DNA of 14,291 nt, taken from Comamonadaceae bacterium. GTDB lineage: Bacteria; Pseudomonadota; Gammaproteobacteria; Burkholderiales; Burkholderiaceae_C. The notes beneath the pieces are model-generated. The model was given only the letters and a program-made list of their open reading frames with translations. It was not told where the DNA came from and did no database searches. Within the stretch, counting starts at the first letter, position 1; each line of letters begins with the position of its first letter. Location of the stretch: NCBI GenBank assembly GCA_947457975.1, contig CANGYC010000029.1, positions 1 through 14,291 of the forward strand, given 5' to 3'. Both the position numbers and the translations under genes were made by a program. Positions 1-7,195 of the stretch are shown here, piece after piece.

Positions 1-417
1 CACCTGATCCGCGATGTGGCCCGCGCCCAGCAGCGCGCCCTGCAGCATCGTCTGGCAGGCCATGGGGTGTCCTTTGGGCACTGGACCTTCCTGCGCATTC
101 TGTGGATACGTGATGGCCTGACGCAAAAGGAGCTCAGCGATCTGGCCGGGGTGATGGAGCCCACCACCTTCAGCGCCGTCAAGGCCATGGAAGAAATGGG
201 TCTGATCGAGCGCCGGCACTTGGCAGGCAACCGCAAGAACATGCACGTGTTCCTCACCGCCTCTGGGCGGGCGCTTCAGAAAAAGCTGGTGCCTCTGGCC
301 GAGGAGGTCAATCGCCTGAGCGTGCAGGGCCTGCCCGAAAAAACCGTGGTCTTGATGCGCGAGGCCCTGCTCACCGTCATCGAAAACCTGGCCGCCGAAG
401 AGGCGGCGCAGGCCTGA
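1..417 (+). CDS. MarR-family transcriptional regulator, 5' end cut by window edge
   Basis: The reading frame is open from base 1 (a GTG at 16 is inside the frame), so the true start is probably upstream of the window; 138 residues are visible. The sequence shows the MarR winged-helix layout: an N-terminal helix, a W-x-FLR-x-L segment, then the recognition region (LTQKELSDLAGVMEPTTFSA, encoded about 118-177), a wing with E-R-R and G-N-R-K, and a C-terminal dimerisation helix. MarR proteins are dimeric DNA-binding repressors or activators that respond to small, often aromatic, ligands. It converges with the decarboxylase gene, with only 6 bp between the stops, so it is not in the operon it faces. 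I infer that it controls the aromatic-acid genes, possibly through the inverted repeat at 2772-2799; its own promoter is not visible. Confidence 0.88.
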   Translation, partial: HLIRDVARAQQRALQHRLAGHGVSFGHWTFLRILWIRDGLTQKELSDLAGVMEPTTFSAVKAMEEMGLIERRHLAGNRKNMHVFLTASGRALQKKLVPLAEEVNRLSVQGLPEKTVVLMREALLTVIENLAAEEAAQA

Positions 418-423
418 TGGCCC

Positions 424-1413
424 TCAGATGCTGAAGGACTCGTAGGTCGACGGATCAAACAACTCGTCCACAGGGACCTGTCGCGACGACAGGCCCTGGG
501 CGAAGTGGTGGCGGGTGAACGCCTCCAGCGTGCGACGGTTGGGCGCCACCCCATAAGACCAAAAGTCTGAGCCCAGGGTCTCGCGTGCCGCCTTGAGCTG
601 CTCTTCCACGAAGGGCAGTGTGACCTTGGTGGCCGAGGTGTCCGCCAGCAACTCCAAGGCTTTCGTCTTGGACTCGCTGAAGGCCTTGAAGACAGCGGCC
701 GGCAGCCAGCGGTGCTGCTGGGCCAGTTCCTTGCGAATGCCCACCACGTGCATGATGGGAAAAATCCCAGTGCGCTTGTAGTAGTCCTTGGCCACGGCGG
801 TGGGGTCATCGAACAGCCAGCCCACGTTGGGGTTGCTCATGGCCGCGCCACTGGGTGGGCGGGGGGCAATGAAGCCGTCAATGGCGCCTTCGTCCAGCAA
901 CTGCGAAATGGTCTTGTCCTCGGGAGCGCTTTCAATCTTCACACCAGGCGGCAGGTCCAGCTTGATCTTCTCAGGCCGGCCCGGGGTGTCGATGCCACCG
1001 CGCACCCAGGTCACGTCTTCGGGCGCTATCCCAAAGTCGTCCTGCAAGATCGAGCGCGCCCACACAATGGCCGTGAGCTGGTACTCCGGAATGCCGATGC
1101 GCTTGCCGCGCAGGTCTTGCGGCTGCTTGATGCGGTCTTTGCGCACATAGATGGACGTGTGGCGGAACGCGCGTGAGAGAAACACCGGCACCGCGATGTA
1201 GGGGCACTCGCCGCGCGAATGCTTGACCAGGTAGCTGGAGAAGGACAGCTCGGTGATGTCGAAGTCACGGCTGCGCATCGCACGAAAGAACATTTCCTCC
1301 GGGCTCAGCAGCATGTACACCGGGTCACAGCCATCGATCTGCACGCGGCCATCGAAGAGCGCGCGGTTGCGGTCGTAGTCGCCCATGGCGACGGAGAGTT
1401 GAAGTTTGCTCAT
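424..1413 (-). CDS. 4,5-dihydroxyphthalate decarboxylase (Pht5)-like protein
   Basis: The product has 329 residues, the usual size for the 4,5-dihydroxyphthalate decarboxylase family, whose fold resembles periplasmic binding proteins but which acts in the cytoplasm. No signal peptide is present (it begins MSKLQLSVAMGDYDRNRALF). Family signatures are PVFLSRAFRHTSIYVR (residues 76-91), the LRGKRIGIPE strand (101-110), TGIFPIMHVVGIRKEL (215-230) and WSYGVAPNR (286-294 approx.). Pht5 removes a carboxylate from 4,5-dihydroxyphthalate to give protocatechuate; many homologues are simply labelled ABC substrate-binding proteins. The gene lies 9 bp downstream of the Rieske oxygenase on the same strand, the partner expected in phthalate degradation, so both are probably on one mRNA. 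The ATG is preceded by an A/T-rich stretch without a clear Shine-Dalgarno, so translational coupling is likely. The substrate is not proven. Confidence 0.85.
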   Translation of the reverse strand: MSKLQLSVAMGDYDRNRALFDGRVQIDGCDPVYMLLSPEEMFFRAMRSRDFDITELSFSSYLVKHSRGECPYIAVPVFLSRAFRHTSIYVRKDRIKQPQDLRGKRIGIPEYQLTAIVWARSILQDDFGIAPEDVTWVRGGIDTPGRPEKIKLDLPPGVKIESAPEDKTISQLLDEGAIDGFIAPRPPSGAAMSNPNVGWLFDDPTAVAKDYYKRTGIFPIMHVVGIRKELAQQHRWLPAAVFKAFSESKTKALELLADTSATKVTLPFVEEQLKAARETLGSDFWSYGVAPNRRTLEAFTRHHFAQGLSSRQVPVDELFDPSTYESFSI

Positions 1414-1422
1414 AGGATTTTT

Positions 1423-2739
1423 TCAGTTTTTCACCACATAGGCCTGGTCCACACCGGCCTGGGCCTCACCCAGCCACACGGGCGCAGCCGCAAAAGCGCG
1501 CCAGTCGGTGGTCTTGGGAATCACACTCTGGAAAGAGCACACCTCGGCAGGCACGGCCTGCGCCCCTGTGCCAATGGCAGGCGCGCCCTGGGCCACCGCA
1601 CGCACCGCCTCCACCATCTGCTTGCGAAACTCGACCACAGCCAGGTCGCTGGCGCCCAGCCGGTCCTTGGTGCGGTCGGCGATCGGGCCCATGGTCACCC
1701 ACATGGCGATGTCCTGATTGGGAAAGCCGGTGATGCCGGTGAAGTTGCCGGCCTTCATGGCCTTGCGGTCCTGCCAGAAGCGGTTGTCGTGGTTGCGCAG
1801 CGGGCGGTAGCGGTCGTCCAGGTCCACGCCCACGGTCTGGCCCAGGAATTTGCGCCAGGTCTCGGTCTCGGGCGTGCGCGAGGGATGGCCCCAGGCGATG
1901 AAGTAGAAGTTCGTGGTGGTGTCATCGGCCGGCACGTTGACGTTGGCCACGTTGTAGAGGTTGTTGGGCGGCACGAGTACCGTCCAAGGCGCCACGAACA
2001 CGGTGGTGCGCACGTACTCGTGCGTCTGTGCGTTCATGATGGGCCGGCGGATGGCGGCATACCGGAACCCGTAGCCGCCGCGGTCGACCTGCATGCGCGG
2101 CGCCTTGTCAGTCGAGGGCCTGAGCCAGTTGTTGGCCGTGGCCTCGCCACTTTGCACCCGCGCCGGCACCATGTCCGAGCTGTGCAGGCTGGAACTGTGC
2201 GCCGAGTCGATGGCGCCTTCGAGTATTTGAGCCCAGTTGGCCGGCACCATCACCTTAACAATGGCCACCCGCGCATCGGCCGTGGGCGCCCAACGGGGCG
2301 GCACGAACTCAGGCATCGCCTGCGCCTCGCCCATCCAGGCCCAAATCATGCCGCCCCACTCTTTGGTCGGGTAGGCCTTGTGCTGGACCTTGTCGGCAAA
2401 GCCGCTGGAGGCCGGCTCAGACACCATTTCAGTGACTTTGCCGGTCACGTCCATTTTCCAGCCGTGGTACAGACAGCGCAGGCCACCCTCTTCATTGCGG
2501 CCATACACCAAGGAGACGCCCCGGTGCGGACAGGCCTCGTCCATCACGCCAACCTGACCGTCGCTGTCCCGGAAGACCACCAGACTCTCGCCCAGGACGT
2601 GGGCACTCACCGGATCACCATCAGGCTCGGCGACTTCTTCGCTCAGGCAGATGGGGACCCAGTGCTGGCGCATCAACTGGCCCATGGGCGCCTTGTTTTC
2701 AACGCGGGATAAAAGTTCGTTCTCTTCGCGGGTGATCAT
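1423..2739 (-). CDS. Rieske [2Fe-2S] aromatic oxygenase, phthalate 4,5-dioxygenase type
   Basis: This 438-residue protein is the terminal oxygenase component of a Rieske non-heme iron system. The Rieske cluster ligands are visible as C70-P-H72 and C89-L-Y-H92, within DEACPHRGVSLVYGRNEEGG. The mononuclear iron site is the expected N168-W...E174-G-x-x-D178-x-x-H181-x4-H186 pattern. The N-terminus (MITREENELLSRVENKAPMG) is characteristic of the phthalate 4,5-dioxygenase/O-demethylase branch, which works as homo-oligomers without a small subunit. Such enzymes need an electron-donating reductase (Pht2/OphA1 type), and none is encoded in this window. The gene is followed after 9 bp by the Pht5-like decarboxylase. 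Upstream lies a strong inverted repeat overlapping a TATATT -10-like element. No Shine-Dalgarno is obvious before the ATG. Assignment to the family is secure; phthalate itself as the substrate is inference. Confidence 0.93.
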   Translation of the reverse strand: MITREENELLSRVENKAPMGQLMRQHWVPICLSEEVAEPDGDPVSAHVLGESLVVFRDSDGQVGVMDEACPHRGVSLVYGRNEEGGLRCLYHGWKMDVTGKVTEMVSEPASSGFADKVQHKAYPTKEWGGMIWAWMGEAQAMPEFVPPRWAPTADARVAIVKVMVPANWAQILEGAIDSAHSSSLHSSDMVPARVQSGEATANNWLRPSTDKAPRMQVDRGGYGFRYAAIRRPIMNAQTHEYVRTTVFVAPWTVLVPPNNLYNVANVNVPADDTTTNFYFIAWGHPSRTPETETWRKFLGQTVGVDLDDRYRPLRNHDNRFWQDRKAMKAGNFTGITGFPNQDIAMWVTMGPIADRTKDRLGASDLAVVEFRKQMVEAVRAVAQGAPAIGTGAQAVPAEVCSFQSVIPKTTDWRAFAAAPVWLGEAQAGVDQAYVVKN

Positions 2740-2771
2740 GGTGAATATGGGCTCGGTGCAGAAGATGCCAA

Positions 2772-2799
2772 GAATATACTTTGTCGCCTAAGTATATTC
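2772..2799. promoter_or_regulatory. Perfect 10-bp inverted repeat, probable operator of the oxygenase-decarboxylase genes
   Basis: The arms gaatatactt (2772-2781) and aagtatattc (2790-2799) are exact reverse complements separated by the 8-nt spacer tgtcgcct. The repeat is AT-rich in otherwise GC-rich DNA and lies 33 bp upstream of the oxygenase ATG. The arm nearer the gene contains TATATT (2778 to 2773 on the minus strand), usable as a -10 box that would place the transcript start about 25-30 nt before the ATG; no convincing -35 is present. AT-rich palindromes overlapping promoters are typical MarR-family sites, and a MarR gene lies at the other end of these two genes. The binding partner is inferred. 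Confidence 0.65.
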
Positions 2800-2804
2800 C
2801 CCTG

Positions 2805-2824
2805 GGAAAAGCCCTAGGCTTTCC
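2805..2824. repeat. Short inverted repeat (hairpin) between the aldehyde dehydrogenase remnant and the operator
   Basis: The arms aaagcc (2808-2813) and ggcttt (2817-2822) flank cta; adding gg/cc outside them, with one bulged A (2807), extends the stem to eight pairs. It lies where leftward transcription from the thiamine-diphosphate enzyme would end before the oxygenase promoter. It may be a weak transcription terminator, but no T-run follows on either strand. It also contains CCTAGG, the same CTAGG core repeated in the 5859-5953 intergenic region, so a protein-binding role is an alternative. Confidence 0.4.
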
Positions 2825-2854
2825 TGTGCCGAGCCTGGCCAGACCCCACCCCTG

Positions 2855-3004
2855 TCAGCTGCGGCGCCTCAAGGACACGTTGATGTTCTTGACCTGAGTG
2901 AGCTCATGCATTTCCTGAAGACAATCTTCCCGGCCAGGGCCGGAGAGCTTGTAGCCCCCGAAAGGGGCGCCCGGCGCATCGAGGCCGGTGGTCTTCATTG
3001 ACAT
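2855..3004 (-). pseudogene. C-terminal remnant of an aldehyde dehydrogenase
   Basis: Read leftward from an ATG at 3004, this short frame encodes 49 residues ending at 2855. It contains the conserved C-terminal signature of the NAD(P)-dependent aldehyde dehydrogenase superfamily, APFGGYKLSGPGRE (residues 13-26), followed by the family's terminal strand ELTQVKNINVSL (34-45). Full-length family members have roughly 480-500 residues; the Rossmann domain, catalytic Cys and Glu are all missing, and the sequence upstream is non-homologous and in-frame closed by the stop of the thiamine-diphosphate enzyme. It therefore looks like the tail left by an internal deletion. The parent gene would have lain directly downstream of the decarboxylase, the arrangement expected for oxidising the aldehyde that such a decarboxylase makes. 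Translation of the fragment is possible but unlikely to be useful. The rest of 2740-3037 holds only the two repeats described separately. Confidence 0.8.
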
Positions 3005-3037
3005 GCTAAAACAAGAAGGCACGGCAGACTCCGCTGG

Positions 3038-4840
3038 TTAATTTGAATCCTTGGCCGACCGCGTCATGCCCTGGGCCATCGCAGGCGAATAGCCCGTCTG
3101 CACGAGCACATCAATCACCACGGGCTCTCCACGGCCGAAGGCCGCCAGCGCCTGCGGCAGCACCTCGCGCAGTTGCTGGGCGTCTTGCACCGGGCCGAAG
3201 GCGGTCAGCCCCTGGGCCCGCGCCATGGCCGCGAGGTCGGGCGCGGGGTTATCGATGCGCTGACCTATCCAGCGGTTCTCGACGGGACGACCGCGCTCTT
3301 TGGCTACACGCTCCTGGTGCAATTCATCGTTGAAGAAGGAACGGTTGTTGGCGACCAGGCAGACAAAGGGAATCCTGGCGTTGGCCGCCGTCCAGAAGGC
3401 GGTGACGCCCATCAGGAAGTCACCATCGCCAATGATGGCCACGGGCAGGCGATCGCTGGCTTGAAGCGCCAAAGCACCACCGACCACCATCCCCGGCCCT
3501 GAGCCAATGCCGCCACCGCCGTCATAGCCCAAGAAATCCAGCGGGTGCTCAAAATCCCACAGGTCGCCAGCCCAGCTCAGTGGCAAGCGCAGAAGGCTCA
3601 CCTGTTTGTCTTGCAGGCATTCACGCAAAACGAAAGCCAAATCGGCCACCCGCATCCGCCCTGGCTCAGGCACAGCACGGGCAGCTTGAGCCACCACCCC
3701 GGCGTCACGCTGCGGTGGGGGCGTGTGAGACGACAGCGCTTGCAGCAAGGCACTGACGCCTGCTTCGGGCTCACAGCTGATGAAGCAATCGGCAGGGGGC
3801 AAGCTCTGGTGGTCCATGCTCCAGCCGTTGTGAATATGGTGATCCACCGACACCTGAATCACGCGGCTGTTCACGGGCTCCTCGCCCCAGGCCTGCTTGA
3901 GCGTTCCGCCCAGGTCCAGCCAGTCCAGGCTGAGCACGACGTCGGCGCTGCGCAAGACAGCGGCCACCGCAGGGGTCAGGAACATGCCGGCCGGCCCGGC
4001 ATGCAAGGCATGCGTGGTGGGAAAGGCCGCACCCAGCTTGAGATCGGTGATGACCTTGGCACCCAGGCGCTCAGCCAAGGCCACGCGCTCATGCCATCCC
4101 TCGAGGCTGCGTGAGACGCGTCCTGCCAGGATGACCGGATTCTTGGCCTGCCCCAGCCACTGTGCTGCGCGATTCAAATCGGCCACGGAGGGCGCGGGCG
4201 AGGCGGGTGGCTCGTAGCGATGCGGATCAGGCAGCGCCGGCAACTGAGGCAGGCGCGCTTCTTGAAGTGCGGCATCGAAGCAGACATACGTGGGCCCGCA
4301 GGGGGCGGTGCGCGTGATGCGCCATGCACGCAGCAGGTCCTCCTGTGCAGCTTTGACGGAGGCCGGCTGTGCATCCCATTTCGTGAAAGAGCGCACCAAG
4401 GCAGCCTGGTCAGCCGCCGTGTGCAACCAGTCGATCCAAGGCCTGCGTTTGGCCGCATCGACCGGCCCGGTGGCGCCAAGCACCAGGACCGGAACGCGGT
4501 CGCACCAGGCATCGAAGATGGCCATGGAGCCGTGCATCAAACCCACATTGCTGTGCAGGATCGCAGCCAGGGGCTGTCCAGACACCTTGGCATAGCCATG
4601 GGCCATGGCCACAGCGTGCTCTTCATGAAGCACCAGCAGCATTTGGGGATCGTCGTTCCCCAGATGATTGACCAAGCTGTCATGCAGGCCGCGAAAGCTG
4701 GCGCCTGGGTTGAGAAGCACATAGGGAATGCGCAGCGCCCGCAGCATGTCCGCGATGGCATCGCTGCCCCAATAGGTTTTGTCCGACGACGAAGGGACAG
4801 GCTCGTCGCGATGCAGCAGACGCGGTGGTGGGTTGCTCAT
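3038..4840 (-). CDS. Thiamine-diphosphate-dependent enzyme, benzoylformate decarboxylase/acetolactate synthase superfamily
   Basis: The 600-residue product has the three-domain organisation of the superfamily: an N-terminal Pyr domain (about 22-190), a central domain (about 215-370) and a C-terminal PP domain (about 395-585). The cofactor-activating glutamate is E73 in LHEEHAVAMAHGYA. The diphosphate/Mg motif runs from GDG (471-473) to NN (498-499). H96 in ILHSNVGLMHG occupies the position of the catalytic histidine of benzoylformate decarboxylase; the Glu-to-His distance, 23 residues, is the same as that enzyme's Glu47-His70. The benzoylformate decarboxylase Ser26 position (NPGS) reads NPGA-S here. 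It probably decarboxylates or carboligates a 2-oxo acid. It lies 22 bp after the TctC gene, with a weak GAG before the ATG, and precedes an aldehyde dehydrogenase remnant. The exact substrate cannot be read from sequence; oxalyl-CoA or sulfopyruvate-type decarboxylation are alternatives. Confidence 0.85.
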   Translation of the reverse strand: MSNPPPRLLHRDEPVPSSSDKTYWGSDAIADMLRALRIPYVLLNPGASFRGLHDSLVNHLGNDDPQMLLVLHEEHAVAMAHGYAKVSGQPLAAILHSNVGLMHGSMAIFDAWCDRVPVLVLGATGPVDAAKRRPWIDWLHTAADQAALVRSFTKWDAQPASVKAAQEDLLRAWRITRTAPCGPTYVCFDAALQEARLPQLPALPDPHRYEPPASPAPSVADLNRAAQWLGQAKNPVILAGRVSRSLEGWHERVALAERLGAKVITDLKLGAAFPTTHALHAGPAGMFLTPAVAAVLRSADVVLSLDWLDLGGTLKQAWGEEPVNSRVIQVSVDHHIHNGWSMDHQSLPPADCFISCEPEAGVSALLQALSSHTPPPQRDAGVVAQAARAVPEPGRMRVADLAFVLRECLQDKQVSLLRLPLSWAGDLWDFEHPLDFLGYDGGGGIGSGPGMVVGGALALQASDRLPVAIIGDGDFLMGVTAFWTAANARIPFVCLVANNRSFFNDELHQERVAKERGRPVENRWIGQRIDNPAPDLAAMARAQGLTAFGPVQDAQQLREVLPQALAAFGRGEPVVIDVLVQTGYSPAMAQGMTRSAKDSN

Positions 4841-4862: not shown

Positions 4863-5858
4863 TCATTCGGACTTGATGCCAGCCGTTCGAATCACTTCCG
4901 TCCAGCGCTTGAGGTCATCGGCGGCACGCTGGCGCATCTGCTCTGGTGTACTGGTCAGGATTTCAATGCCCTGCCCGTTCAGCCTCTGGGCCACATCAGG
5001 CTGGGCCATCACCCTGCGCACGGCCTGGTTGATCGTCTCGATCACCGGGGCCGGTGTGCCTGCGGGGGCGGACAGACCCAGCCAGATCTCACACTCATAC
5101 CCAGGAACGCCCGCCTCATTCAGGGTAGGCACATCGGGCAGCGTGGGAAGCCGCTTGCGGCTGGTAACAGCGAGGGTGCGCAGCCTGCCCGCGCGGGCAT
5201 GAGGAATGATTTGATTGACGATACTGATGGTCATCTCCACTTGCCCGCCCACCACATCTGCGACGGCAGGGCCTGCACCACGGTAGGGAATGTGCACCAC
5301 CCGAGTTTGGGTGGCAGCCTTGAACATTTCCATGGCCATGTGCTGCGGACTGCCATTGCCGCCTGAGGCATAACTGAAGCGGCCCGGCCTGGAACGCAAC
5401 AAGGCCACCAGTTCCTGCACGCTGTTGACCGGAACGCTCGGATGCACCGCCAAGGCCAAAGAAGTGGCGCCAAGCAGCGAGATGTCAGCGAGGTCCCGGA
5501 AGGGATCGAAGGGCATCTTGTCGATTAGCGCGGGGTTCATCGAGGTGATGTTGATGTTGTTGAGCAAGAGCGTGTGGCCGTCTGGCGCCGCCTTGACCAC
5601 CTCGGACGCCCCCAGATTGCCGGCCGCCCCCGGTTTGTTCTCCACCACCACCGGATGAGGCCAGGTTTCTTGCAGCTTCTGTGCGATCAGCCTGGCGATC
5701 ACATCGTTTGAGCCGCCAGGTGGGTAAGGCACCACGATGCGCACGGGGCGTTGGGGAAAGGCCATCGATTGCGCGCTGGCACCCAGCGGCATGGCCGCCA
5801 TCGCAGCGGCCCCGAGCAGCGTGCGCCGGCGCATTGAATGGTCGCGGTGGTCGTTCAT
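4863..5858 (-). CDS. TctC/Bug-family periplasmic solute-binding protein
   Basis: The 331-residue product begins with a twin-arginine-like export signal (RRRTLL at about residues 10-15, hydrophobic core, predicted cut after GASA near residue 29). The mature part carries family hallmarks: VRIVVPYPPGGSNDVIAR (39-56), VVENKPGAAGNLGA (71-84), a HIPYRGAGPAVADVVGG stretch, and the late segment VPTLNEAGVPGYECE. These proteins capture carboxylates in the periplasm for TctAB-type transporters; relatives such as TphC bind terephthalate. No TctA or TctB membrane gene is present here, as is common for the expanded Bug family of Burkholderiales, so it may share a transporter encoded elsewhere. A good Shine-Dalgarno (AAGGAGA on the minus strand, 5871-5865) supports the start at 5858. 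It is the first gene of the leftward series and diverges from the HTH-citrate synthase gene. Confidence 0.93.
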   Translation of the reverse strand: MNDHRDHSMRRRTLLGAAAMAAMPLGASAQSMAFPQRPVRIVVPYPPGGSNDVIARLIAQKLQETWPHPVVVENKPGAAGNLGASEVVKAAPDGHTLLLNNINITSMNPALIDKMPFDPFRDLADISLLGATSLALAVHPSVPVNSVQELVALLRSRPGRFSYASGGNGSPQHMAMEMFKAATQTRVVHIPYRGAGPAVADVVGGQVEMTISIVNQIIPHARAGRLRTLAVTSRKRLPTLPDVPTLNEAGVPGYECEIWLGLSAPAGTPAPVIETINQAVRRVMAQPDVAQRLNGQGIEILTSTPEQMRQRAADDLKRWTEVIRTAGIKSE

Positions 5859-5953
5859 GACAGGTCTCCTTGGTGGTTCTAGGCAAAGCAGTAAACCGGT
5901 GAATGCTAGGCAAGTCCCTAGAATTGATCAATCTTGATCGCGTAATCAACACC
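5859..5953. promoter_or_regulatory. Divergent regulatory region with repeated CTAGGCAA and TTGATC motifs
   Basis: This 95-bp gap serves both the leftward TctC gene and the rightward HTH-citrate synthase gene. CTAGGCAA occurs at 5879-5886 and 5906-5913, 27 bp apart, and the second copy forms an inverted repeat with cctag (5917-5921). Next to it lie a perfect 10-bp palindrome, ATTGATCAAT (5923-5932), and a second TTGATC (5934-5939) exactly 10 bp after the first (5924-5929). TAGAAT (5919-5924) resembles a -10 box for the rightward gene. The density of repeats suggests one or two DNA-binding proteins acting here; the HTH-citrate synthase product itself is the obvious candidate, by inference. Confidence 0.55.
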
Positions 5954-7195
5954 ATGTCCCAGGCCAAGGATTTCCTGAGCTCCAGTGAGGCGGCGCAGTG
6001 GCTGAACGTGCGGCGCCAGACCCTGTATGCCTACGTCAGCCGAGGACTGGTGCGCAGCGTGCAGTCCCCGAGCTCGCGCGAGCGCCTGTACGCACGAGAA
6101 GACCTCGAGCGCTTGCATCAACGCGCCATGGTCCGCGATGGACAGGCGGCGGTGGCGGCGTCCGCGCTCAACCTGGGACACCCGATCGTGGTCACCAGCA
6201 TCACGGAGATCACGCCCAGGGGTCCCAGCTACCGAGGGCGATTGGCGGTGGATTTGGCCGCCCAAGACGCCGGCTTTGAACAAGTGGCCGAGTTGCTCTG
6301 GAGCGGGATGTGGCATGACCAGGCGCTTGTCTGGCCCTCGGCCGAGCACAAGCCTGGCCTGAACACGGTGCTGCAGCCACTCACACCCACCATGGCCAGA
6401 GAACAGATGGCCGAAGTCTTTGCCCTGGCCGTGATGCAGATGGGGATGGGGCGCGGCACGGTACAAAGCCGGCTGGTTCAAGGCCGCCCCTTGGACGCCG
6501 CCCGTGAATTGATCCTGGCCTTGACCGGCTGCCTTGGTTTTCTTGCCAAGGGCGGCGCCTACCTGCCGCCCCAGCCCTCAAGCAGCGTGGTCAGCGCGGT
6601 GCTTCGCGCCCTCGGCAAACCTGGCGACCACCACGATCAGCGACTGCTCAACGCCATGCTGGTGTTGCTGGCAGACCATGAACTCTCACCCGGCACGTTT
6701 GCCGCTCGGATTGCTGCCTCCAGTGGCAGCGCCCTGCATGCCTGCCTGGCCGCGGCACTGGCTGCCAATTCGGGCATCGAAGTCACACGCCGATATGACC
6801 GCGTGGAGCAATTTTTGTCGGATGCCAATCCCCATGCGCAGACGCTTTCAGACATCAGCCGGCGTGTAGACGGTGGTCAAAGCGTCCCCGGATTTGAGCA
6901 CCCCTTGTACCCCTCGGGCGATCCTCGCGCGGCCTGGCTGCTCGAGCAGCTCCAGCAAAGACGGTTGCCACCGGCTGCCGAAAAATCACTGGCATTCATT
7001 GAAAAGATAGCCGCTCGCCACGCTTTACATCCGCGCCACGAGTTGGCCGTGCTCGTGAGCTGCCAGGCCATGCGCTTTCCTCCTGGAACAGCGGGCGGCT
7101 TGTTCATGCTGGCACGGCTGGCGGGCTGGGTGGCCCATGTGCTGGAGCAGCGCCTGTCCCCCACCCTCATTCGACCACGGGCGAAATTCGTCTAG
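5954..7195 (+). CDS. Citrate synthase-family protein with N-terminal helix-turn-helix, probably regulatory
   Basis: The start at 5954 (MSQAKDFLSSSEAAQWLNV) gives 413 residues; an upstream in-frame ATG at 5903 would overlap the promoter repeats and is less likely. Residues 7-53 form a MerR/excisionase-like helix-turn-helix (SSEAAQWLNVRRQTLYAYVS, then R-x-Y-x-x-EDLERL). Residues about 70-413 follow the citrate synthase fold, including ADHELSPGTFAAR with H242 (equivalent to pig His274), DPRA with D323 (Asp375), GWVAHVLEQ (391-399) and the terminal RPRA (407-410). The second catalytic histidine, normally in a GPxHGG loop (His320), is absent: the aligned stretch is SGIEVTRRYDRVEQFL, with V277 at that place. 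The GFGHR motif is also altered to GFEHP (313-317). HTH-citrate synthase fusions are known as an annotated family, but regulatory use is my inference from the fusion, the lost residue and the divergent position next to a catabolic series. A degenerate enzyme remains possible. Confidence 0.88.
   Translation: MSQAKDFLSSSEAAQWLNVRRQTLYAYVSRGLVRSVQSPSSRERLYAREDLERLHQRAMVRDGQAAVAASALNLGHPIVVTSITEITPRGPSYRGRLAVDLAAQDAGFEQVAELLWSGMWHDQALVWPSAEHKPGLNTVLQPLTPTMAREQMAEVFALAVMQMGMGRGTVQSRLVQGRPLDAARELILALTGCLGFLAKGGAYLPPQPSSSVVSAVLRALGKPGDHHDQRLLNAMLVLLADHELSPGTFAARIAASSGSALHACLAAALAANSGIEVTRRYDRVEQFLSDANPHAQTLSDISRRVDGGQSVPGFEHPLYPSGDPRAAWLLEQLQQRRLPPAAEKSLAFIEKIAARHALHPRHELAVLVSCQAMRFPPGTAGGLFMLARLAGWVAHVLEQRLSPTLIRPRAKFV

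Follow-up and report, generated by a model that had tools for sequence, protein, structure and literature searches.

A putative one-component regulator with a citrate synthase fold beside a phthalate cluster of a Comamonadaceae bacterium

The helix-turn-helix–citrate synthase (HTH-CS) protein encoded in a 14,291-nucleotide stretch of DNA from a Comamonadaceae bacterium (the window, meaning here the whole stretch analyzed) is probably an autoregulated sensor-regulator of the adjoining phthalate cluster, that is, a one-component transcription factor in which a crippled citrate synthase (CS) would serve as the sensor. Computed evidence for this proposal comes from the domains of the protein, the residue changes in its active site, a single clade of relatives sharing these changes, a conserved promoter site, and a conserved gene cluster. 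A sequence-only reading of the same DNA had already suggested a possible transcription factor derived from CS; the notion of a DNA-binding protein in which catalytic residues have been lost has gained computed support, and its residue map had to be corrected. Regulation of the divergent operon and of the HTH-CS gene itself is probable in view of the held-out copies of the site, the genome scans, the clade-wide loss of two catalytic positions, and the linkage or fusion to a MarR-family regulator.

Regulators built on enzyme folds are a known kind, exemplified by the MocR/GabR proteins, in which a GntR-type HTH is fused to an aminotransferase fold. The HTH-CS protein shares with them the combination of an HTH and a whole metabolic-enzyme fold as the putative sensor of a catabolic operon, but it differs in the family of the HTH and in the use of the CS fold. 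It exhibits the layout of an enzyme-fold one-component regulator, with a putative DNA-binding domain and an enzyme fold in a single chain and a conserved site in the promoter.

Domains and active-site residues

The 413-residue frame is the 3' part of a listed open reading frame of 430 residues (5903-7195), and the start at 5954 is preferred as the true one because a start at 5903 would place the conserved promoter site within the gene. The N-terminal domain matches HTH_17 at residues 7-54 (29.0 bits versus a cut-off of 27) and MerR_1 (24.8 bits, above the cut-off of 21.6), and the predicted structure of residues 7-60 is a winged-helix layout composed of a strand, helices at 10-17 and 21-29, two strands, and a helix at 48-60. 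These features are reminiscent of MerR-type winged-helix regulators, although the protein falls below the cut-off of MerR PF00376 (17.1 versus 28.2 bits) and its effector part is an enzyme fold. The Citrate_synt profile scores 149.6 bits versus a cut-off of 27, which assigns residues 76-409 to the CS fold. Both the profile scores and the predicted structure bear out the N-terminal HTH joined to a full CS fold that had been read from the sequence (Table 1).

Table 1. Coordinates of the features discussed, as positions in the window
Feature	Position	Strand	Remarks
MarR-family regulator	1..417	+	PF01047, 39.1 bits; 5' end lost at contig end
4,5-dihydroxyphthalate decarboxylase relative	424..1413	-	574.6 bits to 9jp7
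Rieske oxygenase	1423..2739	-	774.8 bits to 7fjl/7v25/7v28; LigXa_C and Rieske domains
Thiamine-pyrophosphate (TPP) enzyme	3038..4840	-	distant benzoylformate decarboxylase relatives, 93 bits
TctC/Bug-type periplasmic binding protein (tctC)	4863..5858	-	PF03401, 237.6 bits; first gene of divergent operon
Candidate operator TTGATCAATCTTGAT-N5-AATCAA	5924..5949	+	kept in promoter alignment
HTH-CS fusion protein	5954..7195	+	413 aa
Winged HTH, residues 7-60	5972..6133	+	HTH_17 and MerR_1 matches; model m4873eddd427e
CS fold, residues 76-409	6179..7180	+	Citrate_synt (PF00285) match
V277 codon	6782..6784	+	column of E. coli His264 / pig His274
E363 codon	7040..7042	+	column of E. coli Asp362 / pig Asp375

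Residues were mapped by aligning the protein with the GltA of its own genome, using the E. coli GltA chain 1owb as the reference for numbering. Counted from Met1, the GPAHGG histidine, the GFGH histidine, and the NVDFYSG aspartate of 1owb occupy positions 265, 306, and 363, which we take to be H264, H305, and D362 by customary residue names. In pig CS, His274 and His320 are named as active-site residues in one paper (PMC4524684), and His274, His320, and Asp375 in another (PMC8455617). The motifs SGIEVTRR, containing V277, and GFEHP are present in the letters that the sequence-only reading gave, and the loss of a catalytic histidine at V277 is real. The column concerned, however, is that of pig His274 and not of His320 as had been claimed, a placement on which the alignments with GltA and Salmonella PrpC agree; the equation of V277 with His320 is ruled out by H316, a retained histidine that occupies the column of E. 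coli H305 and pig His320 in the GltA alignment. Likewise, D323, which had been equated with Asp375, falls together with R325 in a DPR motif in which both residues are kept, and the Asp375 column holds E363, an Asp to Glu change. Thus, two of the three catalytic positions (V277 and E363) are changed. H242 corresponds to the ADHE histidine and is kept, as is D323, in line with the retention reported for both. The proline of GFEHP is no defect, since Salmonella PrpC also reads GFGHP at this place. R325, R388, and R407 align with conserved arginines of GltA, presumably those that bind oxaloacetate.

Glu in the column of the catalytic Asp is also found in 23 of the 24 ordinary CS proteins encoded beside active-site-intact relatives of HTH-CS (whose HTH-CS partners have Asp) and in CitA of B. 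subtilis (2c6x), so that E363 alone is no proof of inactivity; the case for inactivity rests on the lost histidine. The retained residues H242, H316, R325, R388, and R407 point to the oxaloacetate or dicarboxylate side of the pocket. The protein resembles GltA and PrpC in its fold and oxaloacetate-side residues, but differs from them in the preceding HTH, the missing catalytic histidine, and the Asp to Glu change.

The same loss recurs among homologues. A search in which 8000 candidates were scored gave 5425 matches at E ≤ 1e-3, and in the best 120 of these 5425 the column of V277 holds Val (77) or Ile (43) and in no case His, while PF00285 is present in all 120; in this same set, H242 is His in 118, D323 is Asp in 119, R325 is Arg in 119, and E363 is Glu in 118.

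Gene cluster and candidate operator

The HTH-CS gene is divergent from tctC and the TPP enzyme gene, which are followed about 300 bases further on by the Rieske oxygenase and decarboxylase genes and then by the convergent MarR gene. Both the gene map and the promoter repeats uphold the earlier description of a gene that diverges from a catabolic series across a repeat-rich promoter. The relatives of TctC comprise Bug27 and terephthalate-binding proteins, and the PDB entries matched by the oxygenase bear the molecule name 'Rieske (2Fe-2S) domain protein' and are presumably phthalate dioxygenase. The oxygenase and the decarboxylase are close kin of phthalate-pathway enzymes of known structure. 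Some 300 bases (2740-3037) separate the TPP gene from the Rieske gene and may contain a further promoter, perhaps one meant for the MarR protein. A promoter belonging to the Rieske and decarboxylase genes themselves is possible, which counts against the regulator reading. Parts of this gene set also lie beside HTH-CS genes in the collected loci L009-L012, L014, L019-L021, L024, L026, L028, and L029.

Genes in these loci were called with a simple custom script, which left six loci without calls. Among the HTH-CS genes that lack the histidine (His-lost), the upstream gene is divergent in 35 of the 44 called. The neighbor tally covers 40 of 46 first-upstream genes, the window's included, after removal of six near-copies and with none from L026, L049, L050, and L052; it contains TctC (8), cupin (8), MFS (4), Fer2 (4), TPP enzymes (3), EamA (3), and single cases such as Aldedh, CoA_transf_3, and UbiD. 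Taken together, the His-lost HTH-CS protein seems to be a local regulator that adjoins numerous catabolic operons.

The 26-bp candidate operator stops four bases 5' of the HTH-CS ATG. It was derived from the divergent promoter of the window aligned with those of L009-L012, in which the block is conserved and its surroundings have drifted, and all other loci were held out. In each held-out locus, the best upstream match, for which the spacer could be one base longer, was compared with matches in 200 dinucleotide-shuffled versions of that stretch, and p ≤ 0.005, the lowest value reachable, was obtained in 24 of 45 His-lost loci (23 of 44 without L052, an invalid case with a truncated gene and a wrongly cut upstream stretch) and in 27 of 32 loci that retain the histidine (His-intact). 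With L052 left out, sites of at least 16/21 lie upstream of HTH-CS in 24 of 44 held-out His-lost loci and 24 of 32 His-intact loci, counts that include related species, are not independent, and hence overstate the number of events. Elsewhere in the same loci (1.32 Mb), there are nine sites at this threshold. The remaining 20 of the 44 held-out His-lost loci have no upstream site of at least 16/21, and some of them have a site downstream instead. Five of the nine other sites (L013, L014, L020, L029, and L030) are situated shortly after the HTH-CS stop, ahead of the next co-directional gene, and each is found on the opposite strand from the latter, which is also the orientation of the window's site relative to tctC; the one in L030 overlaps the called start of the next gene, and L014, L020, and L030 exhibit no notable site upstream of HTH-CS in the shuffle test. 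Thus, the site accompanies the neighboring operon as well as the regulator. Another of the nine precedes a second HTH-CS gene (L023), and the last three (L022, L031, and L045) have no explanation and are counted against the operator reading.

Genome scans took the pattern alone as their starting point. In the window's own genome (78% complete), the only match at up to three mismatches is the window's site. The exact pattern has two matches in 200 genomes of the family, the window included, both at HTH-CS genes, and the pattern with up to one mismatch has six in 150 genomes of the order; three of these six are at HTH-CS genes (the window, the second genome of the family scan, and one more) and three, which count against the operator reading, have no HTH-CS gene within 1.5 kb. 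The reversed control pattern has no match in the own-genome, family, or order scans. A chance palindrome was rejected as an explanation: no copy of the 26-base pattern with three or fewer mismatches arose when the window was shuffled 200 times, and the pattern is met again in the loci held out. The direct repeat CTAGGCAA (5879 and 5906) was set aside as the main operator, being intact in L009 and not in L010-L012. A simple scan of 5800-6000 found neither a terminator nor a sigma-70-like promoter pair, such as the widely spaced -35 and -10 elements that flank the site of a MerR-type regulator. Moreover, the putative recognition helix TLYxYxSRG is near-invariant in both the His-lost and His-intact groups, which fits a site common to the two.

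The winged HTH would bind this site within the promoter shared by HTH-CS and the divergent tctC-TPP operon. Judging from the position of the site in the shared promoter, four bases before the ATG, the bound protein would block transcription of its own gene, acting as its repressor, and would gate the divergent operon.

Family and proposed descent of the HTH-CS proteins

A scan of species genomes found at least 564 stretches encoding such proteins, of which the best 80 were kept together with a paralogue from the window's own genome, giving 81 genes (L052 without its 5' part and L028 without its 3' part). These split cleanly into 32 with both the catalytic His and Asp and 49 with neither. In the 49 His-lost genes, R325 is retained throughout and R388 and R407 in 48, one gene being truncated, so that this side of the pocket appears to be under constraint despite the disappearance of His and Asp. 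According to the record titles, the His-lost genes belong to Betaproteobacteria, except for two from Reyranella and one from a Deferrisomatales bin. The His-intact genes are distributed among Myxococcota, Alphaproteobacteria, Chloroflexota, one Gammaproteobacterium, some unplaced bins, and one betaproteobacterial bin (Ideonella, L058).

The two groups have both domains, the recognition helix, and the operator candidate in common, but His and Asp are kept in all 32 His-intact proteins, whose genes usually lie beside a CS gene and not beside a catabolic operon. An ordinary CS gene is located upstream on the opposite strand in 24 of the 32 His-intact loci (L053, L056-L058, L061, L062, L064-L066, L068, L070, L073-L077, L080-L083, and L085-L088, within the group L053-L088), versus none of the 49 His-lost loci. 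It is mostly adjacent, and lies about 1.0 kb away in L083 and 1.7 kb away in L088; some of the eight loci lacking it have a contig end nearby. An annotated Agrobacterium plasmid also carries such a divergent HTH-CS/CS pair.

A quick IQ-TREE analysis drew on the CS-domain columns, stripped of the four trait columns. It covered 87 of the 110 rows in the alignment; near-copies (19), the fragments L026, L028, and L052, and a citryl-CoA lyase were omitted. The 39 His-lost rows included group together as a single clade (SH-aLRT 100) placed among His-bearing HTH-CS proteins, and a single change of state suffices to explain the trait, many deeper forks being unresolved.

On balance, we lean towards a cross-phylum family of DNA-binding citrate synthases whose ancestor was His-intact, divergent to an ordinary CS gene, and in control of it through the conserved site TTGATCAATnTTGAT-N5/6-AATCAA, and from which His-lost regulators of catabolic operons later arose. 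In the ancestral state, the enzyme itself would have been the sensor controlling the neighboring CS gene. On one occasion, prior to the radiation of the Betaproteobacteria, the histidine would then have disappeared and the Asp would have been altered. The freed sensor may have kept the operator and spread to catabolic operons, here the phthalate cluster, and in some cases a fusion with a MarR partner may have produced a regulator with two heads.

Several members of the family depart from the common pattern. The diverged paralogue in the window's own genome (L002, 1498-2721 of contig 42; 38% identity) adjoins another TctC gene, has the active-site string HLLDRERR and GFGLP instead of GFGHP, and displays a weak operator match (15/21) in its promoter. 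In a Burkholderia-type group comprising Caballeronia, Pandoraea, Paraburkholderia, and others (L033, L034, L036, L038-L042, L044, L045, and L047), the ADHE histidine is replaced by Asn and the Asp position by Ala or Ser, the arginines are kept, and the AT-rich site remains with a spacer one base longer.

Possible sensing by the CS domain and alternative roles

The CS fold retains the residues H242, H316, R325, R388, and R407 that would grip a dicarboxylate, but it has lost the His and changed the Asp that would abstract the proton of acetyl-CoA. Phthalate, a pathway intermediate, an acid of the TCA cycle, or a similar carboxylate could thus bind without being consumed. As to the ligand, the pocket favors a di- or tricarboxylate, and the gene cluster suggests phthalate or one of the intermediates. 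Moreover, H262, Y281, R336, and R361 are present in 23, 24, 22, and 24, respectively, of the 25 members of the window's subclade and rare in His-intact kin, and they may tune the choice of ligand. Citrate synthases close around oxaloacetate; a comparable closure of the domains driven by a dicarboxylate would shift the pair of HTH domains in the dimer and allosterically alter DNA binding.

Alternatively, HTH-CS could be a regulator in which the CS domain is a mere dimerization scaffold that senses nothing, the signal arriving through a linked or fused MarR protein. Relatives of the window's MarR protein are encoded in the clusters of L009, L012, L014, L024, and L028, and in L010 such a relative forms the C-terminal part of the HTH-CS chain; a MarR domain is also carried by 8 of the best 120 of 5425 homologues, and some members have decayed further, with NTHDRARR in 10 aligned rows. 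However, most loci and most of these 120 examined homologues are without a fused MarR domain, and the carboxylate-binding arginines are near-invariant even where other active-site residues are lost, which makes this alternative unlikely. An Acidovorax plasmid has a MarR gene directly upstream of HTH-CS. The fused proteins (L010, 9995-11842, and P0019, P0021, P0023, P0025-P0027, P0029, and P0030) are about 600 residues long, carry HTH-CS at the N-terminal and MarR at the C-terminal end, and thus have two DNA-binding domains flanking the CS fold.

Quite improbable is a protein that has remained an enzyme despite its residue changes, either one resembling citrate or 2-methylcitrate synthase or a lyase, and in which the HTH is of minor importance. 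The CS fold and most pocket residues are kept, and Glu for Asp is known from ordinary CS proteins. Nevertheless, the absence of His from the column of V277, in the best 120 homologues and in all 49 His-lost genes alike, argues against turnover, as do the scores, which miss every synthase cut-off by far (90.4 bits versus 550 for 2-methylcitrate synthase, NF009006), the separate GltA encoded in the same genome, and the conservation of the HTH helix and operator candidate. A role as pseudoenzyme partner of a genuine CS subunit, which the protein would recruit or modulate, conceivable from the shared active sites of CS dimers and the CS gene in 24 of 32 His-intact loci, is very improbable given the lack of a CS gene in all 49 His-lost loci and the distant kind of the own-genome GltA.

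In the titles and abstract starts searched, no HTH-citrate synthase regulator was recognized, no published name for the His-intact group was seen, and a search on CitA found no paper. Relative to this literature, the regulator with a CS fold, the cross-phylum operator candidate, and the descent from a CS-paired form with an intact active site appear to be new. If the sensor-regulator proposal is correct, HTH-CS genes that now bear the label citrate synthase, as some do on plasmid records, would encode regulators, with consequences for pathway annotation and metabolic models, and the cluster would contain a candidate control point for the breakdown of phthalate and other carboxylates. Likewise, one could trace how an enzyme became first a sensor and then a transcription factor, the apparent intermediates (active-site-intact, CS-paired HTH-CS proteins) being extant. 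Finally, in one homologue (P0041), a 2-hydroxyacid dehydrogenase domain (PF02826) takes the place of the final third of HTH-CS, which represents either a further fusion or an assembly chimera.
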